Below are positions 646-4,326 of a stretch of 64,000 bases of DNA, in pieces (position 1 is the first letter of the stretch; every line of letters begins with the position of its first letter). The notes beneath the pieces were generated by a model, which saw nothing but the letters and a program-made list of their open reading frames with translations, made no database searches and was not told where the DNA came from. The stretch spans positions 4,643,001-4,707,000 of the forward strand of contig NZ_CP116968.1 of NCBI RefSeq assembly GCF_032051675.1, written 5' to 3'. The stretch comes from Candidatus Nitrospira neomarina. GTDB lineage: Bacteria > Nitrospirota > Nitrospiria > Nitrospirales > UBA8639. A program made the position numbers and the translations under genes.

Positions 646-2532
646 ATGAATTATTCTAAAGTCACCAGACTGGGAGGCCCCTCTCCTTCTCAGTTACCGA
701 TGCCCTTCGGCCTTTGCGTGTCTGGATTTCTGGTCGTTTTATTCTTTGGCTGCTTTGGACCTTTGACCGAGACCTTCGGTGCCACCATTATTATTGTGAA
801 TAAAGATGGTCCCGGGGAAGGATTTAACGATCCTGCGCCTTTTACGCCAGTGGGTGGAAATACGGCCACCACTCTTGGGGAGGCACGGTTGAAAGCATTT
901 GAGTATGCGGCAAATATTTTAGCGCAGGTGCTGGTGAGCACGGTGGGCATTCGAGTCGATGCTCGAATTGATTCTTTAGGAACAGGAATACTGGGATCGG
1001 CTGGCCCTAATACTGTCCATCGGAATTTTCCCAATGCTCCTGTGGCGAATACCTGGTATGTCCAATCTCTTGCCAATAAGCTTGCAGAACAGGATCTGGA
1101 TCTTACGACCAGTGATATAAGTGCCACCTTCAGTGCAAATTTCACGAATTGGTATTTTGGGCTGGATGCCAATCCCCCATCTGGACAATTTGATTTTGTG
1201 ACCGTGGTACTTCATGAAATTATTCATGGCCTTGGATTTTTGTCACTCGTTGATGTGCAAACCGGAGAGAAATTCTTAGGAACCAATGATGTATTTATGG
1301 GTTGGTTGGAGCTTCATGGAGCCAGTCCGGCCAATTACCCCGTCATGACCGATAGCCAAAGGCAATTTGCGAATGTGGCGAACCCGGATCTTCATTTTGT
1401 CGGTGTCAATCTTCAAGGCGGCTCCGGGACCCTGACAGCCGGACGAACGGATACTCATGTTCAGATGTACGCTCCAAACCCGGCTCAATTAGGTTCATCG
1501 GTGTCTCATTTCACGAACACGATTAAGCCTGATCAGCTTATGGAGCCCGGAATAGCTTCCGGAAGGGCGATTCATGATCTCGGGTTAGCTCAACCTCTGT
1601 TGCAAGATTTAGGATGGATATTTGAGGCTGGCGTGAGTTTCCCAACTCGGAATGATGTTAATGGTGACGAGAGGGCAGACCTCGTGTGGCGCAACACGAG
1701 CACGTGGGCTCTCGCGATTTGGTTGATGAACGGTTTTACGATTGCTTCCTCCGGTTCATTAGGCGTGGTGTCGTCAAAGTGGCAGGTTGCCGGTACTGGA
1801 GATGTCAATGAGGATGGGAAAGCAGATGTTATCTGGCGTCACAGCGATACAGGAACGGTCGCGGTGTGGCTGATGAATGGTCTCACGGTCATGTCGGTGG
1901 GCTTTCCGGGTAGTGTCTCTATGGATTGGCAAATCGCGAGTGTAGGTGATGTCAACGGCGACGGGAGGGCGGACCTCGTTTGGCGCAACACGAGTAGTGG
2001 GGAAGTGACGATTTGGTTAATGAACGGTTCCACGATTGCTTCTTCCGGCCATTTGGGCGCCGTACCGTTGGAGTGGCAAATAGTGGGAACGGGAGATATG
2101 AATGCCGATGGAAAAGCGGATCTTATATGGCGGAATAACCTTACCGGCGTAGTGGAAGTGTGGCTAATGCAAGGGCTCACGGTCCTGTCAATAGGTTTCA
2201 CCGGAGGGGTCTCCACGGATTGGCAAATTGCAGGGGTGGGTGATGTGAATGATGACGGGATGGGGGATTTTGTTTGGCGGAAAACGAGTAACGGGGAGGT
2301 TGCAATTTGGTTGATGAATGGGGTGACTCTCAGTTCGCCGGGATTTTTTGGCGTGGTGCCTCAGGGGTGGGAGATTGCTGACACCAGTGATATCAATGGG
2401 GATGGGCGGGCAGATATAATTTGGCGTAACAATCAGACGGGTACGGTGGCGGTGTGGATGATGAATGGGCTCACTATCATGTCGGTTGGCTTTCCGGGCA
2501 GTACCTCACTCAATTGGGAAATCCAACATTAA
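646..2532 (+). CDS. secreted HExxH metalloprotease-like protein with six FG-GAP/VCBS-like repeats
   Basis: 628 residues. An N-terminal hydrophobic segment (about residues 20-45) is a signal peptide or anchor. Residues 190-198 read HEIIHGLGF, a zincin HExxH site with the following Gly seen in metzincins; the third metzincin His is absent (Ser at that position), so the third zinc ligand must be elsewhere or activity is lost. From about residue 337 to the end there are six 49-residue repeats, each with a Ca-binding-like D-x-N-x-D-G-x-A-D loop followed by a VWR...WLMNG strand, as in FG-GAP/VCBS beta-propeller blades. Such proteins are secreted and bind surfaces or carbohydrates. The start ATG has no strong ribosome site. 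Protease function is inferred; the repeats are directly visible. Confidence 0.75.
   Translation: MNYSKVTRLGGPSPSQLPMPFGLCVSGFLVVLFFGCFGPLTETFGATIIIVNKDGPGEGFNDPAPFTPVGGNTATTLGEARLKAFEYAANILAQVLVSTVGIRVDARIDSLGTGILGSAGPNTVHRNFPNAPVANTWYVQSLANKLAEQDLDLTTSDISATFSANFTNWYFGLDANPPSGQFDFVTVVLHEIIHGLGFLSLVDVQTGEKFLGTNDVFMGWLELHGASPANYPVMTDSQRQFANVANPDLHFVGVNLQGGSGTLTAGRTDTHVQMYAPNPAQLGSSVSHFTNTIKPDQLMEPGIASGRAIHDLGLAQPLLQDLGWIFEAGVSFPTRNDVNGDERADLVWRNTSTWALAIWLMNGFTIASSGSLGVVSSKWQVAGTGDVNEDGKADVIWRHSDTGTVAVWLMNGLTVMSVGFPGSVSMDWQIASVGDVNGDGRADLVWRNTSSGEVTIWLMNGSTIASSGHLGAVPLEWQIVGTGDMNADGKADLIWRNNLTGVVEVWLMQGLTVLSIGFTGGVSTDWQIAGVGDVNDDGMGDFVWRKTSNGEVAIWLMNGVTLSSPGFFGVVPQGWEIADTSDINGDGRADIIWRNNQTGTVAVWMMNGLTIMSVGFPGSTSLNWEIQH
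1654..2532 (+). repeat. six in-frame 147-nt tandem repeats within a CDS
   Basis: Repeat starts (the GAT of the DVNGDG-like loop) fall at 1654, 1801, 1948, 2095, 2242 and 2389, exactly 147 nt apart; the last is slightly short. Odd repeats share SSG...LG/FG-V features and even repeats share TVMSVGF-like features, so the array looks like three copies of a 294-nt dimer. Confidence 0.9.
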
Positions 2533-3758: not shown

Positions 3759-3849
3759 TCCTGAAAAAAGCAAACCATCTGAAAGGGTGGGACGCAAAGC
3801 TATGGGCCTACGTCTCGGAGTTTGAGATAAGGTTGCCAGGTTGCCAGGC
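3759..3849 (+). promoter_or_regulatory. c-di-GMP-I (GEMM-I) riboswitch aptamer
   Basis: The GEMM-I core elements occur in order: GCAAACC at 3770-3776, a stem ccatct-GAAA-gggtgg with a GNRA-type tetraloop (3775-3790), GACGCAAAGC at 3791-3800, GGGCCTA at 3804-3810, and two GGTTGCCAGG-type 3' segments around 3831-3848. P1 can form between cctg (3760-3763) and cagg (3845-3848). The base before CAAACC is G (3770), the position that is G in c-di-GMP-binding members and A in the cGAMP-binding GEMM-Ib variants, which favours c-di-GMP; this specificity call is from memory of the family. Confidence 0.88.
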
Positions 3850-3850
3850 A

Positions 3851-3924
3851 AGCCACAGAGTCTCCTTGATCATGAGCGGAGTGGCTTCGCTCGGCATGAC
3901 TCACATGCATAAAGGAGATCTCGT
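3851..3924 (+). promoter_or_regulatory. putative translational expression platform of the riboswitch
   Basis: TCTCCTT (3861-3867) is an exact complement of AAGGAGA (3912-3918), the ribosome-binding site of the next gene. AGCCAC (3851-3856) can pair with GTGGCT (3881-3886), and GAGTC (3858-3862) with GACTC (3898-3902), giving a competing fold that would free the ribosome site. No U-run follows, so control of translation rather than termination is inferred. Confidence 0.55.
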
Positions 3925-4326
3925 ATGTTACACAATCAAGGTTTCTCTCGAATAACCTTTCCCCGAACCCATTCCTTTCCATTTGCATTGAGTGCATTAT
4001 GGACCGTTGTTGTGTTTCTCTGTCTTTTTTCCTCCAATGCACTGGCGGGAGAAGTCACCCTAGCCTGGAATCCTCCTTCCGCAGAATATGGTGGATTCAT
4101 TGTCGCCTACGGAACTTCAAGCGGCAGTTATACGGAGACTCAAGATGTCGGAGCTCAGGCCATGTATACGGTGACAAGCCTGAATCCCGGTCAAACCTAT
4201 TATTTTGCGGTAAAAGCTTACGACCGGGCTCGTAAAATTGAAAGCCCGTTTTCGAACCAGGTGAGTGTTACCTTGCCTATCGGTAATGCGCGCCCTGCCC
4301 CTCCTAAGGATGTAAAGGTTTATTGA
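3925..4326 (+). CDS. secreted fibronectin type III domain protein under c-di-GMP riboswitch
   Basis: 133 residues. Residues 1-42 form a long signal peptide ending near SSNALAGE. Residues 43-125 are a single fibronectin type III domain: VTLAWNPPS strand A, the Y-G-x-F-x-V-A-Y strand, LNPGQTYYFAVKAYD with the hallmark tyrosines, then SNQVSVTLP. A short Pro/Lys tail ends the protein. The ribosome site AAAGGAG (3911-3917) fixes the start. Small secreted FN3 proteins are usually adhesive or matrix components, so c-di-GMP control fits a biofilm role; the ligand effect (on or off) cannot be read from the sequence. Confidence 0.8.
   Translation: MLHNQGFSRITFPRTHSFPFALSALWTVVVFLCLFSSNALAGEVTLAWNPPSAEYGGFIVAYGTSSGSYTETQDVGAQAMYTVTSLNPGQTYYFAVKAYDRARKIESPFSNQVSVTLPIGNARPAPPKDVKVY

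Follow-up and report, generated by a model that had tools for sequence, protein, structure and literature searches.

Whether a class I GEMM aptamer lying just before a small FN3 gene controls the translation of that gene, in which direction and with which ligand are the questions raised by this locus. It lies in a stretch of 64,000 nucleotides (the window), positions 4,643,001-4,707,000 of a genome (G000) that consists of a single contig of 4.80 Mb. We favour, at slightly better than even confidence, a GEMM-I riboswitch that regulates translation of a small exported FN3 protein and is most likely an OFF switch. The features discussed below are the following, in window coordinates.

3759-3848, + strand: class I GEMM (c-di-GMP-I, RF01051) aptamer, from a covariance-model search (76.3 bits)
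3760-3763 with 3845-3848, + strand: P1 helix, part of the RF01051 aptamer
3769, + strand: A in place of Vc2 G20 (Rfam column 11), a ligand-selectivity contact, from the Rfam alignment
3796, + strand: equivalent of A47, conserved, from the Rfam alignment
3831-3846, + strand: direct repeat GGTTGCCA, two copies, running along the aptamer's 3' side, from the sequence
3842-3856, + strand: 5' strand of the anti-P1 helix, pairing with 3881-3896 (14 bp, two bulges), from nascent-RNA folds
3844, + strand: equivalent of C92, conserved and buried in the anti-P1 helix, from alignment and folds
3858-3867, + strand: anti-Shine-Dalgarno (anti-SD) strand, with TCTCCTT at 3861-3867, from sequence and folding
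3874-3892, + strand: hairpin GAGCGGAG/CUUCGCUC (3874-3881/3885-3892), within the SD-masked fold and excluding the anti-P1 helix
3881-3896, + strand: 3' strand of the anti-P1 helix, sharing nucleotides with the competing hairpin's 3' strand, from folds and orthologues
3894-3908, + strand: 5-bp hairpin GCAUG/CAUGC (3894-3898/3904-3908), within the SD-masked fold, from folding
3912-3922, + strand: Shine-Dalgarno (SD) AAGGAGA (3912-3918) plus CUC (3920-3922), masked by 3858-3867, from sequence and folding
3925-4326, + strand: FN3 gene (133 aa, ATG at 3925), from the ORF call and PF00041

The aptamer and its gene context

The RF01051 match was full length (model 1-87; 76.3 bits, E 3.2e-13), against a gathering score of 35 bits. 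It was the only Rfam match above cut-off within the window, and had the top score among the six GEMM-I copies of the genome. The hallmarks of the family are present: the equivalents of A47 and C92 (A3796 and C3844), the GACGCAAA core, the GAAA tetraloop and a closed P1. At the sequence level, 3759-3848 is thus confirmed as a real GEMM-I riboswitch aptamer.

The 133-aa product carries one FN3 domain (PF00041, 34.9 bits, E 1.8e-8). Its N-terminus, as read from the sequence, has a basic start and then a hydrophobic stretch ending in SNALA, an apparent Sec signal peptide that suggests an exported product. A first-pass annotation had described a secreted surface protein; secretion is a fair description given this apparent signal peptide, whereas location at the surface was not upheld. 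Orthologues of the protein are 67-85% identical, and the relatives at 74-85% identity are all from Nitrospirales-type metagenome assemblies. Gene order is conserved across the genus: an FG-GAP gene comes first, followed by a small membrane gene, the riboswitch, the FN3 gene and a beta-barrel (BBP2_2) gene. Riboswitch/FN3 orthologues with the same neighbours were found in nine genomes, G000 included. The upstream FG-GAP repeat protein (window 646-2532) shares its repeat type with the large FN3 protein behind another GEMM-I copy of the genome (L003).

Two competing folds and the probable direction of the switch

The exact complementarity between TCTCCTT (3861-3867) and AAGGAGA (3912-3918), claimed in the first-pass annotation, was found at both positions. 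In the minimum-energy fold this pairing grows to 10 pairs between 3858-3867 and 3912-3922, with core probabilities above 0.97. The complementarity is modestly above chance: when 3849-3911 was dinucleotide-shuffled, 0.3% of the shuffles contained the exact TCTCCTT. The duplex with the SD region reached -14.0 kcal/mol, where shuffled sequences averaged -8.9 and 43 of 2000 were as low. No terminator-like site was found on the + strand at 3848-3925, and no intrinsic terminator lies 5' of the FN3 gene; transcription termination was therefore rejected as the mode of control. The SD-sequestering mechanism proposed earlier thus keeps a plausible platform, but it included neither the 14-bp anti-P1 helix nor the OFF direction.

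The anti-P1 helix consumes the 3' strand of P1 and the C92 equivalent, and it excludes the hairpin at 3874-3892, making the two folds mutually exclusive. In nascent-RNA folding at length 3896, the anti-P1 helix had a probability of ~1.0 in the free RNA and ~0 when the aptamer with P1 was enforced, the hairpin at 3874-3892 then reaching 0.96. When the 5' end was lengthened a little, the anti-P1 values were 0.95 (free) and 0 (enforced), and in six of the nine orthologues they were at least 0.90 and 0-0.48, respectively. This choice of folds at length 3896 suggests a ligand-dependent decision just before the SD is synthesised. The SD of the full-length window RNA was unpaired at 0.03 with or without the aptamer enforced, i.e., masked both ways, so the switch would need kinetic control, which is unproven by energy models. 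The direct-path barrier from the anti-P1 state to the masked fold, estimated at ~17 kcal/mol, suggests that such a kinetic trap could work. A hairpin formed by the GGTTGCCA repeat alone was rejected as a candidate, since it appears in short transcripts but is displaced once 3881-3896 is made.

Across the nine orthologues, 98.4% of cells were paired in the anti-P1 helix and 92.3% in the SD-masked fold, compared with 23-55% in slid controls for both platform helices. Two-sided compensatory changes were sought in both helices and none was found among these nine close sequences; the conservation of the platform pairs is therefore consistency, not proof. P1 shows one two-sided change: its third pair, U-A in the majority of the orthologues, is G-C in G007. 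The G019 orthologue has an AGTCAC variant. The G014 copy (L177, G014:C139:6976-7057) has lost one 8-nt GGTTGCCA copy and has GACAC for GACGC, and for these reasons looks decayed.

We propose that, without ligand, the growing RNA would pair 3842-3856 with 3881-3896, robbing the aptamer of the 3' strand of P1 and of the C92 equivalent. The loop of the anti-P1 helix would hold the anti-SD, so the SD would emerge open. With ligand bound, P1 would be locked and the anti-P1 helix blocked; the hairpin at 3874-3892 would replace it, and 3858-3867 would close on the SD. Since the P1-bound route would end in SD masking, we infer a translational OFF switch.

The same parts could work with the opposite sign, the ligand switching translation ON, which we consider unlikely. 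In Geobacter, the pilM riboswitch, whose aptamer is of this type, works as an ON switch, and its C92 equivalent is hidden within the apo fold (PMC9262584); AGCCAC:GUGGCU forms at length 3886 even with the aptamer enforced. However, with the aptamer enforced, transcripts of length 3893 and beyond prefer the SD-masked path to the open one, and enforcing it on the full-length RNA lowered SD accessibility from 0.46 to 0.11 in G018 and from 0.62 to 0.20 in G006. A first model, in which the ligand favours AGCCAC:GUGGCU and thereby frees the SD, was rejected, since UGCC:GGCA extends that helix, which then competes with P1. Against the OFF model, the anti-SD might still pair with the SD as a pseudoknot while the anti-P1 helix stands. 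Somewhat less probable still than an ON switch is that the complementarity to the SD is a coincidence and that the conserved anti-P1 helix works otherwise (Rho access or RNA stability). The exact 7-nt complement is whole in G000, G001, G009, G018 and G019, whereas the other four orthologues (G006, G007, G008 and G014) each break it at one position or more; hardly any change is seen in the anti-P1 helix or in 3881-3918. In folds of G007 and G014, the SD is mostly open and the anti-SD pairing hardly used. Against an incidental match stand its rarity among the shuffles and a 4-bp core, CUC[C/U]:GGAG, which is paired in all nine orthologues while its flanks vary. Only this core, and not the exact 7-nt complement, can be regarded as the conserved element. 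Translational control with the sign OFF remains our preferred reading.

Position 20 and the candidate ligand

The ligand contacts of Vc2 are G20, A47 and C92 (PMC4744006), of which A47 is stacked between both ligand bases (PMC9049102, PMC4744006). With A3769, the window copy lacks the G20 of c-di-GMP-selective class I riboswitches and carries the A20 of GEMM-Ib cGAMP riboswitches. The earlier description of a well-conserved c-di-GMP aptamer is hence right about the GEMM-I family but not about this ligand-contact position, and c-di-GMP cannot be taken as the sure ligand; the experiment proposed with that description did include cGAMP. Position 20 is described as contributing to selectivity without acting as a strict filter (PMC9262584). 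The G20A variant of Vc2 binds cGAMP (PMC6274999), and the complex has been crystallised (PMC6274999, PMC7288161). According to a literature summary, mutation of G20 in Vc2 lowers c-di-GMP binding 30,000-fold (PMC4744006), so that c-di-GMP binding by an A20 RNA is not assured.

Position 20 is G in all five other GEMM-I copies of the genome and in seven of the nine riboswitch orthologues, being A only in G000 and G001. Over the genus, 88 readable GEMM-I copies from 21 genomes had G (77), A (10) or C (1), most of these genomes being incomplete assemblies in which single-letter readings are tentative. The nearby core columns 8, 9, 12, 13, 16 and 17 showed 0-3 departures from the consensus each among the 88 copies. 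Some A20 copies precede the small FN3 gene or response-regulator genes, others are c-di-GMP-I-GGC-like and belong to the larger FN3 type, and G013 has one at a further locus. A20 thus appears to have arisen repeatedly in the genus, in several separate gene contexts. Two 77-nt GEMM-I aptamers of G001 lying ~3 kb apart (G001:C1:1139945 [L148] and 1143021 [L026]) have A versus G at position 20 as their sole difference. The C20 copy (L047, G001:C1:2463565) has a terminator-like platform and lies 5' of a response-regulator gene; its relatives in other genomes have G or A.

Hypr cyclases have Ser instead of Asp in the GHxxGD motif (PMC6456294), and Ser or Thr replacing this Asp was the test applied to GGDEF domains. 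Neither residue was found in the seven GGDEF domains of the source genome, all of which have Asp. The readable GGDEF domains of G001, G004, G011, G012, G013, G014, G019 and G020 likewise all have Asp, in a survey that leaves out a few split, degenerate GGDEF-EAL pieces. Two CD-NTase families, SMODS and DncV-like, had no match in the source genome. Because no cGAMP-making enzyme was found, c-di-GMP is probably likelier than cGAMP as the ligand, and because of A20 it would be bound less tightly. A true cGAMP (GEMM-Ib) riboswitch, whose A20 prefers 3',3'-cGAMP supplied by some unrecognised enzyme, seems improbable to us. It would agree with A20 being a known selectivity change, with the behaviour of the Vc2 variant and with the recurrence of A20 in the genus (10 of 88 copies). 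It sits poorly with the lack of Ser/Thr at the Hypr position in those eight genomes, which have A20 copies, with the lack of SMODS or DncV-like enzymes in the source genome, and with the G20 kept in close orthologues before the same gene. Our working view is therefore that this is probably a c-di-GMP riboswitch with weakened binding.

Known systems and GEMM-I copies across the genus

Vc2 (Vibrio cholerae tfoY) is presented, in PMC7371385 and papers cited there, as a translational OFF switch in which bound ligand masks a distant ribosome site. The window copy resembles it in its class I aptamer and its predicted OFF masking of the ribosome site, and differs in A20 instead of G20, in the sequence of the platform and in the FN3 gene downstream. 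The window copy also differs from c-di-GMP-I-GGC (RF03167): it matches RF01051, its tetraloop is GAAA and its P3 is longer. In Geobacter, GEMM-Ib (cGAMP) riboswitches such as pilM and Gs1761 have A at position 20. The window copy shares this A20, and its C92 equivalent is buried by anti-aptamer pairing as in pilM (PMC9262584); unlike them, it has no terminator, no Hypr GGDEF was found, and its sign is predicted to be OFF, not ON.

The five other GEMM-I copies of the genome precede three FN3-type genes (two of them neighbouring), a Flp pilin and a sigma factor. Three of these copies are of the c-di-GMP-I-GGC type, two of them before FN3 genes. L002 and L003 (G000:C1:3740367 and 3743405) are neighbouring c-di-GMP-I-GGC copies, each with an FN3-type gene, and their leaders and gene starts are near-identical. 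L005 (G000:C1:1534677-1534767, - strand) is a GEMM-I aptamer followed by a GC-rich hairpin with a T run. The gene that comes next encodes a sigma factor of the sigma-70 family, on which this copy apparently acts as a transcriptional switch; most genomes of the genus have similar copies. The targets are adhesion-type proteins, pili and perhaps motility, which fits what is expected of c-di-GMP control.

Our literature search found no paper on these Nitrospirales GEMM-I riboswitches. With them, relatives of Nitrospira (Nitrospirales) join the organisms in which several GEMM-I riboswitches precede adhesion-type, pilus and sigma-factor genes. Since the change from G20 to A recurs in genomes without a recognised cGAMP enzyme, position 20 in this genus might tune affinity instead of switching the ligand, giving different genes different c-di-GMP thresholds; we put this forward tentatively, as a possibility clearly short of an even chance. 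The recurrence of A20 without a recognised Hypr enzyme offers a natural test of whether this base determines the identity of the sensed dinucleotide or just the amount required.
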